A DNA stretch of 64,000 bases from Halalkalicoccus tibetensis (GTDB lineage Archaea > Halobacteriota > Halobacteria > Halobacteriales > Halalkalicoccaceae). The DNA is taken from assembly GCF_037996645.1 (NCBI RefSeq), contig NZ_JBBMXV010000001.1:852268-916267 (forward strand), read 5' to 3'. Below are positions 10,952-54,639 of the stretch, piece by piece; the stretch's first letter is position 1, and every line of letters starts with the position of its first letter. Under the pieces are notes generated by a model that was not told the DNA's origin, ran no database searches, and was given only the letters and a program-made list of their open reading frames with translations. The position numbers were made by a program, and so were the translations under genes.

Positions 10952-11407
10952 CTATACGCTGAACTGATCGATCCGTTCTGGCACACCGTTGTGCGGGTAA
11001 TGAGTCACCCTGAGGAGCGTTGGTTTCCGCTCGAACGCGATCTCGCTTTTATAGTGTGTCTCCACCCTGCAATCGTTCTCCGTCTCCTCCGTTGTGAAGG
11101 TTTGTATCTCGGCGATAGCAATTCCTTCGGCGTTCTCATTCAGCGACGTGTATATCAAGAGACTCAGCGCGTCGTTCATACTCCCTGTTTCGATCATCCC
11201 TCTCAGCACGACTGTCTCACCCTCAACGACTATCTCGACGGACTGTTGTCGGTCGGACGAGCAGGCTCTACTGGTCGCTTCGATCGTACTGGATTCGACC
11301 TCCACGGATCGGTCGTTGTTCTCTCCTAAGCATCCCGATACGAACACGGCTGCGACACCAGCCGACGTCAGAAACGACCGTCTTGAAATAACACGGTCTC
11401 CTATCAC
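10952..11407 (-). CDS. Tat-exported lipoprotein of unknown function
   Basis: This 151-residue protein has a twin-arginine signal (I-S-R-R-S-F-L-T-S-A-G-V-A-A) and a lipobox V-S-G-C, putting the lipidated Cys at residue 26, so it should be anchored outside the membrane. The mature part holds a short beta-rich domain with V-E-I-V-V-E-G-E-T-V-V-L-R-G-M-I-E-T-G and three further cysteines or so. No family recognised. Codon use and G+C are lower than neighbours, and it sits between lrpA1 and porB, which are adjacent in related genomes from memory. A recent insertion is therefore likely. No partner gene is visible. Confidence 0.75.
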   Translation of the reverse strand: MIGDRVISRRSFLTSAGVAAVFVSGCLGENNDRSVEVESSTIEATSRACSSDRQQSVEIVVEGETVVLRGMIETGSMNDALSLLIYTSLNENAEGIAIAEIQTFTTEETENDCRVETHYKSEIAFERKPTLLRVTHYPHNGVPERIDQFSV

Positions 11408-35166: not shown

Positions 35167-38010
35167 TCAATCCCAGAACGCCTGGGTGCGGGCGTACTCG
35201 CGCTCCTTCTCGAGGATGTCCCGGTAGAAGTCGTCCTCGCTCTCGCGGTGGTTGTTGATGACGTAGGCGGCGTTCCGGGGGCCGACCCCGCGGGCCGCGA
35301 GCGCGATCACCGCCTGCTTGCCGTGGCCCTGAACGAGGCTCGCCGCCTTGTACGCCCGCCGGGTGGCCTTCTCCTCCCCGGAGTCCTTGTCCGCCTTCCG
35401 CACGGCCTCGACGACCTCCTCGGCCCACGGGTTGAGCGCGGCGACCATCGTCGAGCCACACTTCGGACACTCGGGCTTCTCCGCCACCCGCTCGACCGTC
35501 TGGGTGCGGTCCCACTCCTTGCAGTGTAAGCAGGCCAGCAGCACGCGGTCCTCCCTGATCCGCTCTCGCACCGTCTCGATCACGCTCGCGTCGGCGTTCT
35601 CCGGCGAGAGGAGTTCGGTGCTCGACGACCGGCCCCCGATCCCCAGCGGCGTGCGCTCGCCGACGCGATCGACCGAGAGCTCGCCCGACTGGACCCGTTC
35701 GAGCACGCGGGCCGCCCCGGGCACGTCGAGGTCCTCGTGGAAGACCTCCCTGATCGCTTCCTCGTACATCGGGGTGTCCTTGAGCGCGCCCAACAGACGA
35801 TCCATCGAGATCGATCCCCGCGAGCCCTGCCACGATTTGAGCGCGCCGAACTTCGCGGCGACCTGCGCGAGGCGGAACTTCAGGGCGTCCGAGTTCTTCA
35901 GACTGAGCTCGATCAGCGCCTCGACGTGTTCCGGGTCCGTCTCCTCGAGTACCTCGACGACGTCGCGGGCGGCGAGCCCCGAGGGCACCGTCAGTTCGAT
36001 CCGGTAGGGATCGGTCTCGAGCCCTACCGACGAGCCGGTGCGCTGGCCCAGGAGTGCCGAGAGCAGCCTGCCGAGGGTCTCGTTGACCTTGTGGCCGAAA
36101 CAGGCGTTGATCACGACGGTTCCCCCCGAGAACTCGATCAGCAAGTGGTCCTCGTCAGGAATCGGGTGGCCGGCCTCGACGTGGCGCTCGATCGGCGAGA
36201 GCGCCTCGCTCGCGGTGTGGAGGTCCGTCGGGTAGCGCGAGACGAACTCGCGGGCGACCGACTCGCGGGAGGCACCGCCCGAAAACTGCGGGGCCGCGAC
36301 CCGGCGGAGCTCGCCGACGTTCTCGGCGACCGCTTGGGGAACCGGGATCTCCTGGCCGACCCACGAGGGGATCTCGCCGGTCGGGTTCTCGACGGGGCTC
36401 ACCCTGACTTTCTCCTCCTCCTCCTCGATCTCGACGATCCGCCACATCTCCCCGCGCTGGATGAACGTCGCGCCCGGCTCGGCGAACGTGGTGACGAAGC
36501 GCTCGTCGAGGGTGCCGACACCCCGGCCGCTCGCGACGTCGCGGACCTCGAAGGTCGCCTCGTCGGGGATCATCGAGAGGTTCGCGTAGACGTACTGCCA
36601 CGTCCCGCCCGACTTCTCCAGGCTGTCCGCTTCCTCGTCGAGCCAGAGGATCCTGTTGCTGCTTAGCTCCCGCACCACCTCCCGGAAGGTCTCCTCTGGC
36701 AGGTCGGCGAAGGGCGCCGCGCGGGTGACGATCCCGTAGGCTTTTCTAGCTCGGATCTCGCCGTGGCCCATCACCAGCCCCGCGATCTGGTTCGCGAGCG
36801 TGTCCAGGCTGCCGGTGTGGATCGCCGCCCGCTCGACGTCGCCGTTCCGGGCGCGATCGACGATCGCGAGCGCCTCCAGCGCGTCGTCGGGGCTGGTGGC
36901 GATCACGGTGCCCTGCGAGACCTGGTCGCTGCGGTGGCCCGCCCGCCCCACGCGCTGGAGCAGCCGCGAGACCTCCCGGGGGCTGGCGTACTGAACGACG
37001 TGGTCGACCTGGCCGACGTCGATCCCCAACTCCATCGAGGACGTACACAGCAGCCCGTCGAGCTCGCCGGCCTTGAACGCGTCCTCGACCTCGATTCGCG
37101 CGTCCTTCGAGAGCGAGCCGTGATGCACCCCGATGTTCGCATCCAGCACGTTGAACCGCGATCCCAGCGCCTCGGCCGTCTGGCGCGTGTTGACGAAGAT
37201 CAGCGTCGACTCGTTCTCCTCGACGATCTCCCGGATCGCCCGCACGTGGCTCGCCATCTCGGGTTCGGTGACGAGCTCGCTGGCGAGCTGTTCGTCGCCC
37301 GGCTCGATCTCCGGGGTCAGCACCCGCAGATCGAGGCGGCTGCCCGCGTCGACCTCGCGGATCGCACAGGGTCGGTTCCCGGTGAGGAACGATCCCACCT
37401 CCTCGGGGTCGCCGACGGTCGCCGAGAGGCCGATCCGCTGGAAGTCGCCCGCGAGCTCGACGAGGCGTTCGAGCCCGATCGACATCTGCGCGCCGCGCTT
37501 CGAGGCCGCGAGCTCGTGGACCTCGTCGATCACGACGTGTTCGAGGTCCGAGAGCCCCTCCCTGAGCTTCGAGCCGGTCAGCATCGCCTGCACCGTTTCG
37601 GGGGTCGTCACGAGCACGTCCGGCGGGTCGTTGGCCTGCTTCTGGCGCTGGTAGTCGCTCGTGTCGCCGTGGCGCACCGCAACCTCGATTCCCAACCGAT
37701 CGCCCCACCAGTCGAGGCGCTCGCGCATATCCCGATTGAGGGCCCGAAGCGGCGTGATGTAGAGCGCGGAGATTCCAAAGGGGGCCTCCGCTTGCGAGAT
37801 CGAGTCGAAGACCGGCAACATCGCCGTCTCGGTCTTGCCGGTGCCGGTGGGCGCGATCACCAGGGCGTTCTCTCCGGCGGCGAGCGGCGGAATCGCCTCC
37901 CGTTGGGGGGCGGTCGGCGTCGAGAACCCCCGTTCTGAGAGCGCCGCCCGGACCTCGCTTCCGAGATGTGTGAAGGCCGCAGAACCCGACGAAGCCCGCT
38001 GTTCGCTCAT
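35167..38010 (-). CDS. lhr: Lhr-type ATP-dependent helicase
   Basis: This 947-residue superfamily 2 helicase has motif I A-P-T-G-T-G-K-T-E, motif II V-I-D-E-V-H-E-L (DEVH), motif III S-A-T, a second RecA domain with V-G-R-A-G-H-R motif VI, then the winged-helix and beta-sheet bundle of the Lhr core (about 480-880). A C-terminal zinc-like C-x-x-C pair (C-L-H-C-K-E-W, C-P-K-C-G-S) lies near residues 860-885. Lhr enzymes unwind DNA forks in repair and recombination. The ATG at 38010 (M-S-E-Q) is chosen over 38034 because the extra eight residues are not conserved-looking. It lies 46 bases from psd and 48 from the HTH gene. Confidence 0.93.
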   Translation of the reverse strand: MSEQRASSGSAAFTHLGSEVRAALSERGFSTPTAPQREAIPPLAAGENALVIAPTGTGKTETAMLPVFDSISQAEAPFGISALYITPLRALNRDMRERLDWWGDRLGIEVAVRHGDTSDYQRQKQANDPPDVLVTTPETVQAMLTGSKLREGLSDLEHVVIDEVHELAASKRGAQMSIGLERLVELAGDFQRIGLSATVGDPEEVGSFLTGNRPCAIREVDAGSRLDLRVLTPEIEPGDEQLASELVTEPEMASHVRAIREIVEENESTLIFVNTRQTAEALGSRFNVLDANIGVHHGSLSKDARIEVEDAFKAGELDGLLCTSSMELGIDVGQVDHVVQYASPREVSRLLQRVGRAGHRSDQVSQGTVIATSPDDALEALAIVDRARNGDVERAAIHTGSLDTLANQIAGLVMGHGEIRARKAYGIVTRAAPFADLPEETFREVVRELSSNRILWLDEEADSLEKSGGTWQYVYANLSMIPDEATFEVRDVASGRGVGTLDERFVTTFAEPGATFIQRGEMWRIVEIEEEEEKVRVSPVENPTGEIPSWVGQEIPVPQAVAENVGELRRVAAPQFSGGASRESVAREFVSRYPTDLHTASEALSPIERHVEAGHPIPDEDHLLIEFSGGTVVINACFGHKVNETLGRLLSALLGQRTGSSVGLETDPYRIELTVPSGLAARDVVEVLEETDPEHVEALIELSLKNSDALKFRLAQVAAKFGALKSWQGSRGSISMDRLLGALKDTPMYEEAIREVFHEDLDVPGAARVLERVQSGELSVDRVGERTPLGIGGRSSSTELLSPENADASVIETVRERIREDRVLLACLHCKEWDRTQTVERVAEKPECPKCGSTMVAALNPWAEEVVEAVRKADKDSGEEKATRRAYKAASLVQGHGKQAVIALAARGVGPRNAAYVINNHRESEDDFYRDILEKEREYARTQAFWD

Positions 38011-38058
38011 CGGGCTCAGTAGGGATTCGAGCAACCTAAGGGCACTGCCTGTCGGAAT

Positions 38059-38844
38059 CTATGCGCTGAGCGGGCGGGCGGTATTCCGGTACGTTCGGTA
38101 GATCCCGCCAGTCCACTCGGCTGCTGGTTCGGACTCGGTGTACACGACGCCGCTCAGTCTGCCGACGCCGTCGTAAACGCGGATTCCGACCCATCCCTGT
38201 TCGGCACAGAACAGCAGATCGAATTCAACAGAACGAGCCGTCTCCCATAGCGTGAGGCTGTCCCTGCCAAGCGACCGGGCGAACACGGTGGGAAATTCGG
38301 TTTCAAGCTCGTCGATACAGGCGGGCGTGAAAACGATTTCAGCACGGAGGGAGCCTTCGGCTAGCCGTTCGGCCGAGTAGGTGATATGTTCAGGAATGAC
38401 CGTAGAGACCACTCCTCTGAGGTTCGTCGTTTCCGCGAGTTTCTCTCGGATTCGCTCTAGCGGTTCGTGTGGTTTGTTTCGGGTCGGATAGATGATTTCG
38501 GCGTCTTTGAGAAGCCAGTGGGGAATCGAGACGCCGCCCCCGAGATCGGAGAAGAGACGCTCACCGGCGTAGATTCGCTCGGAAACGTCTTGTGCGTCGG
38601 AGATCATTCGAGCGTGCAGTTCGCCGATCGGTGTGAGCCGATAGCCTTTTGAAGATTTCTCGACCAGTCTGTACTCCCGAAGCTGTCGCGTCCTCCGGTA
38701 GATAGTCTGAGTCGAAACGCCGAGAGCTTCAGCGAGATCGCGTTTTCGCTCGGTACCACGATGAATCGCCTCAACGAGTTCGGCGTTGTCCACAAGACAC
38801 CGAAGAGCGTCGGCGATCTCGGGCCGGTCCATCTGTAGAGACAT
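38059..38844 (-). CDS. Winged-HTH transcriptional regulator with FilR1-like C-terminal domain
   Basis: This 261-residue protein has an N-terminal winged helix (L-A-E-A-L-G-V-S-T-Q-T-I-Y-R-R-T-R-Q-L, residues ~38-65 of the listed form) and a ~170-residue C-terminal domain with G-V-V-S-T-V-I-P-E-H-I-T-Y and L-L-F-C-A-E-Q-G-W-V-G-I-R-V-Y-D, like the DUF1724/FilR1 ligand domain of archaeal regulators. The ATG at 38844 is preferred over 38862: a TTATTTCA box (minus strand, about 38866-38873) is 22-29 bases before it. It borders the AT-rich acquired patch and faces away from it. It may regulate the neighbouring genes. Confidence 0.82.
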   Translation of the reverse strand: MSLQMDRPEIADALRCLVDNAELVEAIHRGTERKRDLAEALGVSTQTIYRRTRQLREYRLVEKSSKGYRLTPIGELHARMISDAQDVSERIYAGERLFSDLGGGVSIPHWLLKDAEIIYPTRNKPHEPLERIREKLAETTNLRGVVSTVIPEHITYSAERLAEGSLRAEIVFTPACIDELETEFPTVFARSLGRDSLTLWETARSVEFDLLFCAEQGWVGIRVYDGVGRLSGVVYTESEPAAEWTGGIYRTYRNTARPLSA

Positions 38845-39018
38845 ACTAACAGTATATATCAATTTGAAATAAGTCTACCGATGGTAAGTATTTTGTACTG
38901 GTTTACAAGATCTGAAATGGAAACCGGATTGTGGAGCCCGGGGTCAAATTTCTGAATTCTATACAGTAATTAAATAGATAATTAGCCACCTTATACACAC
39001 TATTGGTGATACAGACTA

Positions 39019-40008
39019 ATGGAACGGTCTGAAATAAACAACAGACTCACTGAGCGTCAATTACTCAACTTGCTTGGTTCAGCAGGAGTTAGTGGTGCAC
39101 TGCTCTCACAACCGATTTCTGCTACCGAAACCAACGGTGAAAATGAGGAGATAGTCTCTACCGATACAGAGAACAGAACGAACGATAAAACGATTGAAGA
39201 TATAGCGGTTGAAACAGCCAAACATCCGACACAGTCACTCGTGGCGTTCACTACACCTGTTTTCAAAGATGATCCTCAAATATACGTTGCTACCGGGGTC
39301 AATACTGCTGATAACGTCCATTTGCCAAATGTTGAGGATCCCGAGGATATTACTGATACAGCGTCAGTAGAGAAACTGACCAGGGTAGCTGATGTTGAAC
39401 TGGGCTTTCCGTTTGACCTTCGATGGGATGATGAGAAGACATTGCAGTACTGGGATTCTGGCGAGATTTTATCCCAGCGGATCACGCCCAGCGGTGAGGT
39501 TACGGATGCCAAAGTGGTAGGAACACGACAGATACCACGAATCTTCGATGATTCAGACGCTTCTTTCGGAACTCAACAAGTCGGCTTTGAAGAGTGCTTC
39601 GACGTTCCACTGTACGGTGAAGCTTGCTTTAGCACCGGAGATTTTCTCGATGATCGAACGTACAGTTGTGTAGGTGGCTCTACACCGCCACTACTCGCGG
39701 CTGATGCAACCTTCATAGACGCTAGTTTGGGTGGAATTTCGGTCAATCTCGACTTCTGGATCGGTTTTCAACTTCGCCGATTCGATACCTGCGTTTGGCT
39801 GGGAAGCGAAGCAGGACAGATCTGCGTTACCAACTGTTATACTGAGATTCCGACGATTGCTGCTCTGGAAGAACAAGCGACCGAGTTCCTAAACGACTTC
39901 GACCTCGGTCCGCTCAGATTTGTGACCGGAGTTCTTGCCACCGCTCTTGCAGCGTTATTACTCGCGATCATAACTGGGTTATCGATAGCGTTCGGAACCG
40001 CGGGATAA
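39019..40008 (+). CDS. Unrecognised exported/membrane protein in AT-rich patch
   Basis: This 329-residue protein is encoded by DNA clearly richer in A+T than its surroundings. The N-terminus has a hydrophobic stretch (L-L-N-L-L-G-S-A-G-V-S-G-A-L-L-S, residues ~14-30) reminiscent of a Tat-type signal but without twin Arg. The middle third is acidic. Residues ~195-275 contain seven cysteines (E-C-F, E-A-C-F, Y-S-C-V, D-T-C-V, I-C-V-T-N-C-Y). A long hydrophobic helix (V-L-A-T-A-L-A-A-L-L-L-A-I-I-T-G-L) closes the protein. I do not recognise a family. The layout (leader, long middle, Cys-containing region) loosely resembles halocin precursors, but this is a guess from architecture. Confidence 0.65.
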   Translation: MERSEINNRLTERQLLNLLGSAGVSGALLSQPISATETNGENEEIVSTDTENRTNDKTIEDIAVETAKHPTQSLVAFTTPVFKDDPQIYVATGVNTADNVHLPNVEDPEDITDTASVEKLTRVADVELGFPFDLRWDDEKTLQYWDSGEILSQRITPSGEVTDAKVVGTRQIPRIFDDSDASFGTQQVGFEECFDVPLYGEACFSTGDFLDDRTYSCVGGSTPPLLAADATFIDASLGGISVNLDFWIGFQLRRFDTCVWLGSEAGQICVTNCYTEIPTIAALEEQATEFLNDFDLGPLRFVTGVLATALAALLLAIITGLSIAFGTAG

Positions 40009-40022
40009 CAACGTCGAATAGA

Positions 40023-40391
40023 ATGGTGCAAACACACACATATAGACCATCAACTATGGTAGATCATCAATCACGTGGTCGCTGTACCTACGAGGACGTT
40101 CTCGAATTCGTATTCATTGTTTCTCATTTCGTCCTCGCAGTCACAATGCTGGCTAGCAGTTTCATGTGGCTCACTGATATTCTCACCGGATGGCAACTGC
40201 CAGTCAGATTCCTTGGAGTAATCGTTGCGCCAGTTCTGATCGGCAGACTGTTTCTCCGCATCTATCGAACTGACGAACGATTTACCACACCGTTGACCCT
40301 CGTTACCGCTGGTTGCTACCTCCTTTCGCCGGTGGTTGTGGCGTTCATCGCATCTCTGAGCGATCTCGATACGGGTTTCACGATCGCATAG
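40023..40391 (+). CDS. Small multi-helix membrane protein of the AT-rich patch
   Basis: This 122-residue protein has four probable membrane helices (about 29-50, 58-77, 84-97 by weaker signal, and 92-112). It starts 14 bases after the preceding gene, so the pair is co-transcribed. An in-frame ATG at 40056 (M-V-D-H-Q) could be the true start, giving 111 residues. No family recognised. By position it could help export, anchor or give immunity against the product of the preceding gene. That is inference only. Base composition matches the patch, not the chromosome. Confidence 0.6.
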   Translation: MVQTHTYRPSTMVDHQSRGRCTYEDVLEFVFIVSHFVLAVTMLASSFMWLTDILTGWQLPVRFLGVIVAPVLIGRLFLRIYRTDERFTTPLTLVTAGCYLLSPVVVAFIASLSDLDTGFTIA

Positions 40392-40462
40392 TTACTCGTC
40401 GTCGTCGGGCTGATCGTAGAACTGATCGTCGTATTTCGTATCAAATATTCGTAACTAGCTGT

Positions 40463-41233
40463 TCAGATCTCATGATAGAGGCCGAGACGCGTCCCGTCGA
40501 GCAGATAGGCCTCCCCCCCGTCGAGCCCTTCAGGCAGGAACGGACAGAGGAACTCCCCGCGGACGTTGACCCACGTCCCGCCCATCAGCTCGTTGAACGC
40601 CGGAAAGACGACGAGATCGGTGTCGCTCCATGCCTCGATCCGGTCGGCGAAGGGCTCACGGGAGAGCGCACCCCGCAGCCAGACCCGTTCGGTGCGCGTG
40701 CCGCCCACCTCGTCGGTCAGCCTGACCTGCGGGTGTTCGTGGCCCACGCAGACCATCCGAGCGCCGAGCACCTCTGGCGCCGGCCAGCTATGGCCGTGGC
40801 AAAAGCCCACGTCGCCGAGCCGACATCCCGATCCGGGCGTCACCGTCACCTCGGGGATCTCCCCCGGGGTTCGGGGCGAGCGCGCGTCCCCGACGATCGA
40901 TTCGATGTCGCCGTCGTGGTTGCCCTTCACCACCGTCACCGGCACCGACAGCCCCTCGAGCAGCACCTCGATCTCGCCGCGCTCGGCCCCGCCGGGCCCG
41001 CCGATCGAGTGCATGAAGTCGCCGAGGACCACGAGCCGGTCGGCGTCCGTCTCGCCGAGCAGCCGCTCGACGTGCTCGCGGCGTTGCTCGGCGCGGCTCG
41101 CGACCTCGACGCCGTTCTCGTAGCGAAGCGCCTGCTCGATCCCCGCGTGGAAGTCCGCGAGCACGAGCGCGCGCTCCGGGCCGAGCTCCGCCGACGCGGC
41201 CGGTTCGCCCGGGATCGGCTCGACGAGCGCCAT
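40463..41233 (-). CDS. rpe: RPA-associated phosphoesterase
   Basis: This 256-residue calcineurin-like phosphoesterase shows the metal motifs L-V-L-A-D-F-H-A-G, V-V-L-G-D-F-M-H, V-K-G-N-H-D-G-D, C-H-G-H-S-W and V-G-H-E-H-P. It is the third gene of the rpa1-rpap1-rpe operon known from Haloferax, where it accompanies the single-stranded-DNA-binding complex; its substrate is not settled. The ATG at 41233 overlaps the rpap1 stop codon by one base (TGATG). The longer open frame is a shadow of rpap1. Confidence 0.93.
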   Translation of the reverse strand: MALVEPIPGEPAASAELGPERALVLADFHAGIEQALRYENGVEVASRAEQRREHVERLLGETDADRLVVLGDFMHSIGGPGGAERGEIEVLLEGLSVPVTVVKGNHDGDIESIVGDARSPRTPGEIPEVTVTPGSGCRLGDVGFCHGHSWPAPEVLGARMVCVGHEHPQVRLTDEVGGTRTERVWLRGALSREPFADRIEAWSDTDLVVFPAFNELMGGTWVNVRGEFLCPFLPEGLDGGEAYLLDGTRLGLYHEI

Positions 41234-42912
41234 CAGATCGGCTTCAACACGTCGTCCTGGGGCTCGTAACACCGCCCGCTCAACAACGCGCTCTCGATGG
41301 CGTCGTCGACCTCCTCGGGGGCGACGCCGGCCTCGCTCGCGACGCGCTCGATCACTTCCTCGCGATCGGCGCCGTCACCGTCTGCGAGTTCGGCCATCAC
41401 GGCCATCGCCCGGTCCTCGACGTCGACGTCCTCCTCGGCGTCCGCCTCGCCAGCGGAATCCGGTTCGGACTCCGCGTCAGGCTCGAGCTCGGACTCGGGT
41501 TCGTTCGCCACGGGGTCGGCCGCCTCGTCCTCGCTCCCGCTCCCCGCTTCGGCTTCCGCGGCCTCGGAGGCCGCCGTATCGACCTCCTCCGACGCCGCCT
41601 CCGACTCGTCGGGTTCCGGTACGTCGATGTCGGCCTCGCCGGCGTCGTCGACCTCGTTGCCCGAGGAGAAGTCCATGTCGAACTCGGCCTCGATCTCGGC
41701 GCGCTCCTCGGGGTCGAACTCGTACATCTCCCCCTTGCCGGAGGCGACGGCGTCCGCCGTCGCCTCCCCCTCCGGCTCGGGTTCGCTCGGCTCTGACCCG
41801 CCGGCGTCGAAGTCCCCGAGGTCGTCCGAACCCGACTCCGGTTCGGATTCGGGTTCCGCCGTCGTCGTATCGACCGCCTCCGTCGTGTCGATCGTTCCGG
41901 AGGCCTCGTCGGGTTCCGATCCGCTCGATTCCGGCGATGTCTGCTCTCCTCGGGGTTGATCCTCGGCCTCTGCCTCCGCCGTTCCGGAGTCACCCGTCTC
42001 CGCCGACGGCTCGGCGGCGCTCTCCGCTTCAGTCTCCGCCCCCGCTTCCGCTCCCACGTCGGGCTCGGCGGACGACGGCTCCGCCGACGGGGTCGACTCG
42101 GACGAACCGCTCGTGTCGGCCATGTCGACCGTTTCGTCAGCATCAATCGTAGCGTCCGCGTCGGCCTCCTCGCCCGCGATCGGTTCGGGGGTCTCGGCGT
42201 CCCGCTCCCGCAGGTCCGTGAGATCGACCGCCCGGCCGTCGTCCTCGCCGGGGGCGATCCCCGGCGAGCTGACCTCCTCGACCTCGCCGGCGACGAGCCG
42301 CGCCGCGTCGAGCGCGGTGTCGCGAAGCGCCGACAGATAGGCGGGCGTCGTCCCGTACTCCTCGCGCGCCAACGCGATCCCGCTCGCCGGATCGCTTTCG
42401 TCCCCTTCGAGCGCGGCGGCGAACTCGCTCACCCGCCGGAGGGTGTGTTCGGCCGCCTGGACGGTCCAGCGGTCCCGGGTCTCGGCGTCGACCTCCGCGA
42501 CGCTCTCCGGTCGGACCGAGGTGTAGACCCGATCGGAGTCCTCGGGCCGGAAGGTGTTGGCCTTGCCCGTCACCGCGACGAACATCGGCGGGTCGGCCCG
42601 CTCGAGGAAGGCCAGCGCGTCGGTCTGGTACTGGCCCGCGTAGACGACGAACGCTCCCGTGGGGTCGACAACGCGGGCGCGGACGACCTCGTCGTTGACC
42701 CGCTCGACCTCCGTGAGGACGCCGACGACGAACAGACGGTTGACCCGCGCGCCCGTCGGCGTGATCACGTACTTCGGGGCGCGCTCCTCGTCGCTGTCGG
42801 CGTACTCCAGCGAGGCGGCGTCGAACTCGGTCGCGAACAGCCGGTGGGCGACCTCGCGCCGGCCCGGCCCGGAGTCGCCGCCGGAGCCGTTCTCGCCGTC
42901 GTTCGAGCTCAT
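41233..42912 (-). CDS. rpap1: RPA-associated protein Rpap1
   Basis: This 559-residue protein has an N-terminal OB-fold region (about 25-215: V-A-H-R-L-F-A-T-E-F, K-Y-V-I-T-P-T-G-A-R-V-N-R, V-V-D-P-T-G-A-F-V-V-Y-A-G-Q-Y) of the COG3390 type. A very long acidic low-complexity linker of Glu/Ser/Ala/Pro (about 245-470) follows. The C-terminal helical domain (M-A-V-M-A-E-L-A-D-G-D-G-A-D-R-E-E-V-I-E, then E-V-D-D-A-I-E-S-A-L) ends in G-R-C-Y-E-P. It partners Rpa1 in binding single-stranded DNA during repair. The linker is unusually long but in frame. The start overlaps the rpa1 stop codon. Confidence 0.9.
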   Translation of the reverse strand: MSSNDGENGSGGDSGPGRREVAHRLFATEFDAASLEYADSDEERAPKYVITPTGARVNRLFVVGVLTEVERVNDEVVRARVVDPTGAFVVYAGQYQTDALAFLERADPPMFVAVTGKANTFRPEDSDRVYTSVRPESVAEVDAETRDRWTVQAAEHTLRRVSEFAAALEGDESDPASGIALAREEYGTTPAYLSALRDTALDAARLVAGEVEEVSSPGIAPGEDDGRAVDLTDLRERDAETPEPIAGEEADADATIDADETVDMADTSGSSESTPSAEPSSAEPDVGAEAGAETEAESAAEPSAETGDSGTAEAEAEDQPRGEQTSPESSGSEPDEASGTIDTTEAVDTTTAEPESEPESGSDDLGDFDAGGSEPSEPEPEGEATADAVASGKGEMYEFDPEERAEIEAEFDMDFSSGNEVDDAGEADIDVPEPDESEAASEEVDTAASEAAEAEAGSGSEDEAADPVANEPESELEPDAESEPDSAGEADAEEDVDVEDRAMAVMAELADGDGADREEVIERVASEAGVAPEEVDDAIESALLSGRCYEPQDDVLKPI

Positions 42913-53316: not shown

Positions 53317-53961
53317 ATGGCGATCGAAGCCACGTTCACCGATAGTCAGTTTCCGTTGGCTGCCGTTTTCTCCGCCCTCCCTGACGTACGAATCGAGCTC
53401 GACCGCGTCATCCCGACGGATGCAGCGATCGTACCATACTTCTGGGTACAGGGCGCTGATGCAGCCAGTATCGATACGAGCGACATCGACCATCCTGGTA
53501 TTCGTGATACGCGGGTGATTGATACCGTCGACAACAACGCGCTCGTCCGTGTCGAGTGGAACCTCGAACACGAGAGCGTCTTGACTGCGATTCTCGAAAC
53601 GGACGTGGTCCTCGTGTCGGCCATCGGGAAGCAGGACGAGTGGACGTTCGATGTCCGCGGGAACGATCAGCAGACCCTCTCTGACTTCCGATCGTACTGC
53701 CAAGAACACGACATTCCGGTGGAGCTGACCCACCTTCATGCACTCTCACCGTTACATTCGGATCTGGAATCCGATCTCACCGACGCCCAACGGGAGGCGT
53801 TGACGCTCGCGTATGCTCGTGGCTACTACGATTCCCCACGGCAAGTACCGCAACAAGCGATCGCTGACGAACTGAGGATCACGAGACAAGCCGTGGCCTC
53901 GCGGCTGCAACGGGGTACCAGACGGCTCGTTGCGAGTACGTTGATTACGTCCGACGAATAG
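53317..53961 (+). CDS. Bat-type HTH transcriptional regulator
   Basis: This 214-residue protein has an N-terminal Bat-like sensing domain (about 1-145) and a C-terminal HTH_10 domain (about 155-207): L-T-D-A-Q-R-E-A-L-T-L-A-Y, G-Y-Y-D-S-P-R-Q, A-D-E-L-R-I-T-R-Q-A-V-A-S-R-L-Q-R-G. These match the bacterio-opsin-activator DNA-binding domain. No PAS or GAF domain, so the signal likely comes through a partner. An element AGGTTTTACT lies about 24-34 bases upstream. The gene is less G+C rich than the core neighbours. Confidence 0.9.
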   Translation: MAIEATFTDSQFPLAAVFSALPDVRIELDRVIPTDAAIVPYFWVQGADAASIDTSDIDHPGIRDTRVIDTVDNNALVRVEWNLEHESVLTAILETDVVLVSAIGKQDEWTFDVRGNDQQTLSDFRSYCQEHDIPVELTHLHALSPLHSDLESDLTDAQREALTLAYARGYYDSPRQVPQQAIADELRITRQAVASRLQRGTRRLVASTLITSDE

Positions 53962-54025
53962 ACGGATAAACCTGTTACCCAAGCAAAGGCCAGGCTCAAC
54001 CGCGAAACGGCCCTAGTAGACAGCA

Positions 54026-54421
54026 GTGACAGCAACTGGGCCCCACAGTGGTAGAACGAACGACACCCTCCGAGAGGCGGTCGTTGAAGACGGTGGCTAT
54101 CCGGATCTAACGATCGAGTCATACCTCCTCCGATCGGCGGAGGGGATCAGCTATCACGAAGACGAGATGGTCTATCGGTTGGAGTACGATCCGTCGATCG
54201 ACAAACCGAGTCGGGCCGTGGTCGCTGCAGTCGCGACGATGACCCACACGGATCCGCTGGATCTCGATCCCCTCTACCGGGAGATCGATACGGACGCGTT
54301 CAACGACCTGTTCGCGCCGGCCCTGACCGACACTGGACGACGGGGACAGGTCCGCTTTCAGTACAGCGGCTTCGAGGTCAGGGCGACCAGCCACGGCGTG
54401 ATAGAGGTCGATCCGAGATGA
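54026..54421 (+). CDS. HalOD1 output-domain protein (GTG start)
   Basis: This 131-residue protein has a C-terminal half matching the haloarchaeal HalOD1 output domain: V-A-A-V-A-T-M-T-H-T-D-P-L-D-L-D-P-L-Y, D-A-F-N-D-L-F, and Q-V-R-F-Q-Y-S-G-F-E-V-R-A-T-S-H-G-V-I-E-V. HalOD1 domains are often found alone or fused to response regulators; their function is unknown. The GTG start at 54026 gives a 35-residue N-terminal extension of doubtful value; an internal start is possible. Its end overlaps the next gene's ATG (ATGA). Confidence 0.85.
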   Translation: MTATGPHSGRTNDTLREAVVEDGGYPDLTIESYLLRSAEGISYHEDEMVYRLEYDPSIDKPSRAVVAAVATMTHTDPLDLDPLYREIDTDAFNDLFAPALTDTGRRGQVRFQYSGFEVRATSHGVIEVDPR

Positions 54422-54639
54422 CGTCCGTCGAATTCGTCGATACTGACGGTGCCACGGGGACGATCTTTGCGGATCTGGCGATCGACTACGAGGGACGGTT
54501 TGCTGAGACGATCGACGCCGTCGTCTCGTCGGTGGACTGTGACGGAACCGCGACTGATGACGATCTCCAAGACGTCTCGGTGGAGCTCTATCTAGAAGGC
54601 CATTTCGCGAAACTCGATCTCGTTCGTGGCGAGTCGTGA
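54418..54639 (+). CDS. Small acidic protein co-transcribed with HalOD1 gene
   Basis: This 73-residue acidic protein is linked by an ATGA overlap with the HalOD1 gene, which makes translational coupling likely. Sequence: F-V-D-T-D-G-A-T-G-T-I-F-A-D-L-A-I-D-Y-E-G, then D-V-S-V-E-L-Y-L-E-G-H-F-A-K-L-D-L. No motif known. It may be a partner of the HalOD1 protein. The following 170 bases hold no convincing gene up to tRNA-Trp. Confidence 0.6.
   Translation: MTSVEFVDTDGATGTIFADLAIDYEGRFAETIDAVVSSVDCDGTATDDDLQDVSVELYLEGHFAKLDLVRGES

Follow-up and report, generated by a model that had tools for sequence, protein, structure and literature searches.

A recently acquired AT-rich insert in Halalkalicoccus tibetensis, a candidate antagonism cassette of an exported two-module precursor and a membrane partner

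The window, by which we mean the whole stretch of 64,000 nucleotides of Halalkalicoccus tibetensis DNA that was analysed, carries a small group of genes between an Lhr-type helicase gene and a metallophosphoesterase gene. It comprises a winged-HTH regulator gene and, divergent to it, two co-directional open reading frames, A (329 aa) and B (122 aa as written), which are separated by 14 bases as previously described (Table 1). The name rpe for the 3' neighbour follows a haloarchaeal rpa3-rpap3-rpe operon, to which we take this gene to belong.

Table 1. Features at the insert and its flanks, in window coordinates.
Feature	Coordinates	Strand	Basis
Left flank, Lhr-type DEAD helicase gene, outside the insert	35167..38034	-	domain matches
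Acquired insert (HTH + A + B), ~2.4 kb	38061..40460		G004 junctions; lhr abuts rpe in G001, G003, G005; G+C
Winged-HTH regulator gene, HVO_A0261_N + FilR1_middle architecture, divergent to A	38059..38862	-	Pfam PF25213 3e-14, PF08350 5.6e-24
CTTATACACA, similar to a TATA box, some 25 bases upstream of A's ATG	38990..38999	+	sequence reading
Gene A, for a Cys-bearing exported protein of 329 aa, candidate antagonistic precursor	39019..40008	+	family profile matches, AF2 pLDDT 74.7
Leader of A, Tat-like, TERQLLNLLGSAG, with E-R in place of the twin Arg	39019..39123	+	alignment to relatives, whose leaders carry RR/KR
N-module of A, beta structure weakly resembling propeller blades	39169..39525	+	AF2, Foldseek; encoded by an ORF of its own in several relatives
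C-module of A, beta domain with six Cys and the motif DxWxG...CVWLGSE...C	39574..39840	+	alignment, AF2
C-terminal hydrophobic helix of A	39904..39990	+	hydropathy; helix 300-324 in AF2 model
Gene B, small membrane protein with 3 helices left, candidate immunity gene, TAG at 40389	40056..40391 (ORF opens 40023)	+	G006 homologue
Rest of the B frame beyond the TAG, with the fourth helix	40392..40454	+	G006 protein continues here as QLLVVVGLIVELIVVFRIKYS
Right flank, Rpe-type metallophosphoesterase gene, outside the insert	40463..41272	-	domain matches

A and B are, as noted earlier, poorer in G+C than their flanks (48.5% and 49.6%), the HTH gene stands at 57.5%, and the insert as a whole has 50.6% G+C compared with 67.9% (s.d. 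2.9, minimum 58.4%) in all other 2.4-kb segments of the window. Four of six sister species, all of the same genus (G001, G003, G004 and G005), have an empty site: HTH, A and B are all absent, and 24-75 bp separate the helicase gene from rpe. In another (G002) rpe has a different neighbour. The sequence of G004 equals that of the window up to about 38060, at the HTH stop codon, and is similar again from about 40460, the two matching parts lying a few tens of bp apart in G004, and these two junctions indicate that the insert consists of the HTH gene, A and B and nothing else. The preliminary description of this DNA had placed the start of an acquired patch at 38863; as the HTH gene belongs to the insert, this start has to be moved to near 38061. 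That the patch was acquired is strongly supported by the empty sites and by its AT-richness, and the pair, rather than being conserved at this locus with normal composition, is missing here in most sister species. HTH, A and B thus form one recently acquired insert, and the empty sites, taken with a gene layout that recurs in dozens of other genomes, place its arrangement beyond chance.

The divergent HVO_A0261/FilR1-type gene is the obvious candidate for a regulator of the cassette and probably controls it. Such control of the pair had been suggested before and is plausible here, since the regulator shares the insert and is divergent to A, and since similar regulators occur near one other A locus and near some halocin C8-type loci, where they lie divergent (L145) or upstream (L188-L191 and L193). 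It is not general in the family, however: among the A-family loci scanned, the window-type regulator was found besides the window only at DL31/G162, and a general link between family and regulator was dropped for that reason. The TATA-like element in front of A would fit a leaderless transcript.

Protein A has the hydrophobic leader, the acidic middle (21% D/E, 8% K/R) and the single C-terminal hydrophobic helix, from residue 296, that had been read from its sequence, and its cysteines number six (193, 203, 217, 258, 269 and 273) rather than the seven first counted. The leader reads TERQLLNLLG, with ER at the place where the Tat-type leaders of relatives carry RR or KR. AF2 modelled the C-module (residues 186-329) with a pLDDT of 84.6 and a pTM of 0.78. 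Foldseek returned only partial propeller blades for the whole model (TM about 0.2) and no PDB fold match for the C-module model, and the whole model had no match in a viral structure library. Since the sequence of A matched nothing in Pfam, NCBIfam, PHROG or PDB, a housekeeping origin was rejected; so was a virus origin, with no match to A in phages or viral contigs.

Homology and structure searches and a hunt for the pair elsewhere brought up a family with a recurring layout. No close relatives of A and no near copies of A or B were found in the genome contigs searched, and the distant relatives of A share 27-37% identity with it. Beyond the leader, the A-family profile matches 29 of 392 Halobacteriales genomes (matches of about 20 bits were discarded as leader-only) in a patchy spread that takes in 15 of 125 genomes of one family and 11 of 146 of a second, and relatives annotated as hypothetical also lie on plasmids of Haladaptatus and strain DL31. 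In all 27 of 27 loci the A gene is AT-rich compared with its neighbours (mean 49% versus 64% G+C, p 1.5e-8). PF22862 was not among the Pfam matches of 39 members, and the A family is unnamed and without a Pfam or NCBIfam model. Makarova et al. are said to have surveyed archaeal conflict genes in 2019, and the A family may be among the unnamed candidates of that survey.

Members share an RR/KR leader, an N-module, a C-module of the pattern C..C..C...DxWxG...CxWxGxE...C..C, and then an amphipathic and a hydrophobic helix. Two neighbouring genes encode the N-module and the C-module separately at seven loci (L125, L127, L130, L131, L132, L143 and L165), which suggests that the modules may work as separate chains, and the C-modules of these split genes have no signal of their own, so that they may travel with the N-module. 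C-modules occur with other leaders as well and after long repeat-bearing N-parts (L130, L131, L143); most members are short, and the known delivery domains of polymorphic toxins of the CDI/Rhs type were not found in the family. At L130 (6388-8298), L131 (6701-8518) and L143 (2757-5339) the N-module is fused to a long repeat-bearing N-terminal region of 600-860 aa, and the C-module gene lies 3-12 bp downstream.

Within 150 bp downstream of a C-module gene, on the same strand, lies a gene for a 45-300 aa protein with at least two TM helices in 16 of 30 cases; for control genes taken from these loci the figure is 16 of 299 (odds ratio 20, p 7e-11). This p value is too small, because the loci are partly related (L114/L115) and because the pairs counted at L125, L130 and L131 are an N-module gene followed by a C-module gene, yet the effect is large. 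The gene caller misses AT-rich genes, and manual reading adds true pairs. The membrane gene lies upstream instead at L119, L120 and L127, and no membrane partner was found at L117 and L124. The 32 partners compared fall into 21 clusters without detectable similarity, a diversity that immunity genes would be expected to show, and where A proteins are related to one another, so are their partners (groups G337/G352/G149, G226/G338/G380 and G016/G081/G149/G331). Adjacency and partner diversity together give the layout of bacteriocin or halocin immunity, in which a small variable gene lies beside a candidate toxin gene. Two partner families searched on their own were present in about a dozen genomes without an A neighbour. 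The proposal of a secreted precursor with an immunity or export partner is therefore well supported by comparison, and of the two roles immunity fits better than export, since the partners are unrelated between loci and partner-type genes occur alone, as B does in G006.

Several loci show further arrangements of these genes. L129 (7162-9730, in G017) holds a tandem array: downstream of a lone N-module gene lie two C-module genes, and after each of them comes a separate multi-TM protein of 270 aa, the two membrane proteins being related to each other. The array looks as if toxin-immunity units had been duplicated repeatedly. At L138 (5215-5675, in G332) the A-family gene is directly followed by a tandem pair of related 2-TM proteins, possibly a duplicated immunity gene. 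Partner-type membrane genes with no recognisable A-family neighbour within about 1.5 kb lie at L210-L221, L227 and L228 and are candidate orphan immunity genes; such partners could also have an unrelated role.

The diversity of the partners bears on two other readings of the pair. A might be a surface protein anchored in the membrane or envelope, such as an adhesin, a ligand binder or a self-recognition factor, whose small partner aids export, folding or anchoring. The Tat-type leader and C-terminal TM helix suit an anchored protein, Cys domains are common in surface proteins, and the N-module is weakly propeller-like; a partner in maturation or anchoring should, however, be conserved, whereas about 21 unrelated clusters were found, and the patchy, AT-rich and partly plasmid-borne distribution and the split of the N and C modules into separate genes also speak against this reading, which we consider unlikely. 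Very unlikely, in our judgement, is an anti-virus or superinfection-exclusion cassette, in which a mobile island would carry two membrane proteins that keep viruses from entering. It would share the island-like, patchy, AT-rich character and the variable membrane partners, but the family has no relatives in phage records or viral contigs and no PHROG family common to its members, and an exported Tat precursor with a separable C-module would be an unusual design for this purpose. The reading that we prefer, and regard as moderately probable, is that the insert is a recently acquired antagonism cassette, in which A would be an exported, membrane-acting two-module precursor and B its candidate immunity protein.

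To our knowledge, few halocins are known at sequence level. Precursors of the C8 type were collected with the HalC8 peptide, which is present at 100% identity in one genome (G016). A resembles halocin C8 and HalI in being a haloarchaeal precursor of about 280-330 aa with a leader, a separate N-module and a C-terminal Cys module; the leaders of C8 precursors and of A's relatives are of the Tat type, and the window protein has ER in place of the twin arginine. The A family and halocin C8 have in common a patchy and plasmid-borne occurrence (often for C8, partly for A) and an HVO_A0261/FilR1-type regulator near some loci. Precursor layout and regulator type would thus suit a true member of the halocin C8 family, an assignment that is nevertheless scarcely credible. 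In a profile comparison of the A family with C8 precursors (hhalign), the leader alone aligns and the C-modules reach a probability of 0.1%, which rules out membership on sequence, although A would work like a halocin precursor. A has no match to TIGR04449 at E 10, where real C8-like proteins match at 5e-12 to 2e-15, and none in Pfam to PF22862, the halocin C8 N-terminal domain; furthermore, halocin C8 is a 10-Cys peptide, whereas A has a six-Cys beta domain with another Cys pattern and a terminal hydrophobic helix. Immunity to halocin C8 is reported to reside within the precursor itself (PMC11509114), in contrast to the separate membrane gene that is the candidate in the A cassette. Downstream of the halocin C8-like genes at L197, L198 and L199, at a distance of 82-102 bp, lies a gene for a 125-aa protein with 4 TM helices, which suggests a separate immunity gene in a subgroup of C8.

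A sister species with a remnant of the insert (G006) informs on the state of the copy in the window. Its HTH gene is reduced to the final 41 codons and its gene A to the final 10, and B is complete; the missing DNA amounts to 1794 bp (window 38185-39978). The remnants are 98.8-100% identical to the window, compared with 85.8% for rpe and 91% for the helicase gene, and being far more alike than the flanks they suggest either that the insert moved between lineages after the split or that both lineages acquired it recently. The start of B is likely the ATG at 40056, because the upstream ATG at 40023 is ATA in G006. B had been described as a four-helix protein; as written it has three predicted helices, and the fourth lies past the in-frame TAG at 40389-40391, a codon that is CAG in G006, where B has 132 aa and four helices. 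All three differences between the two copies in the likely B frame are protein-changing (Pro/Ala 70, Arg/Gly 75 and TAG/CAG 123, window first, numbered from the ATG at 40023), and Pro 70 and Arg 75 of the window fall within predicted hydrophobic stretches. The TAG, be it a true truncation or a sequencing error, is decisive for whether B works here.

Judged by these features, B looks truncated and the system looks half-decayed in the window, with a premature TAG that strips B of its last helix and a leader of A without the twin arginine. Either change could be a harmless variant, and the two losses may be connected, as a non-exported toxin would need no immunity. In G006 the decay is opposite in order, the candidate toxin A being lost and B kept. 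The cassette may therefore be partly dead in this strain, and it is quite possible, if a little short of an even chance, that it is decaying and without present function here, A not being exported, B being truncated and the remnant being kept by chance. The stop codon in B, the Pro 70 and Arg 75 in place of Ala and Gly, the ER of the leader and the 1.8-kb deletion in G006 argue for this, whereas the reading frame of A is uninterrupted for 329 codons, none of the six family cysteines is missing, the TATA box is well placed, either allele of B may be the ancestral one, and the ER leader might still work. Loss of function here would be compatible with antagonism as the role of the family, a claim that is independent of the activity of the copy in the window. 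The empty sites and the two stages of decay, one with the putative toxin lost and immunity kept and the other with immunity truncated and the toxin kept, show such a cassette turning over within a short time.

If the antagonism reading is correct, the precursor A would be exported folded through Tat with disulphides in its six-Cys C-module, and the modules would separate by proteolysis, or join loosely. Once exported, the C-module by itself or together with the N-module would target the membranes of related haloarchaea, most likely through insertion of its terminal hydrophobic helix, which would disturb the membrane of a sensitive relative, and B would be the cognate membrane-embedded immunity protein that recognises the C-module and protects the producer. 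Against this, searches by sequence and structure gave no match to a known toxin or antimicrobial family or fold, and a strict immunity role for B is awkward with A intact and B truncated in the window, unless A is silent or not exported.

Pore-forming colicins are two-gene units of a toxin with a hydrophobic C-terminal segment and an immunity protein with 3-4 TM helices. A and B likewise form a two-gene unit with a multi-TM protein and a hydrophobic C-terminal segment, but fold, size and release differ and no sequence relation was found. The ionophore toxins of CDI systems have small, hydrophobic and highly polymorphic CdiI immunity proteins (PMC11630599), and a membrane-acting toxin module, presumed in the case of A, with a small, hydrophobic, variable partner would be common to both. 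Those toxins are bacterial, contact-dependent, CdiA-delivered five-helix bundles (PMC11630599), whereas A is a free precursor of the Tat type, in which a beta domain is accompanied by one or two hydrophobic helices. Another haloarchaeal secreted precursor, HFX_0892, is cleaved by a protease to an antagonistic fragment, with the activity in two N-terminal alpha-helical motifs (PMC12893001); compared by description, it resembles A as a secreted precursor and differs in that its active part is N-terminal and alpha-helical.

A widespread family that has no name yet, and whose membrane partners are separate and highly diversified, would supply testable pairs of haloarchaeal weapon and immunity, and with them a way to ask how haloarchaea distinguish kin from competitor. 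More tentatively, and with some doubt on our part, the family could be an undescribed superfamily of haloarchaeal secreted membrane-acting proteins that combine a new six-Cys beta fold with an insertion helix, include split-gene versions in which the C-module needs joint export with a Tat-carried N-module, and have many unrelated cognate membrane immunity proteins. This would constitute a second, larger class of halocins and, if true, would extend the diversification of toxin and immunity to free halocins. Elsewhere in the window, two milder AT-rich patches (10955-11407 and 53317-54636, about 54-61% G+C) hold a Tat/lipoprotein-like 151-aa protein and small uncharacterised genes.
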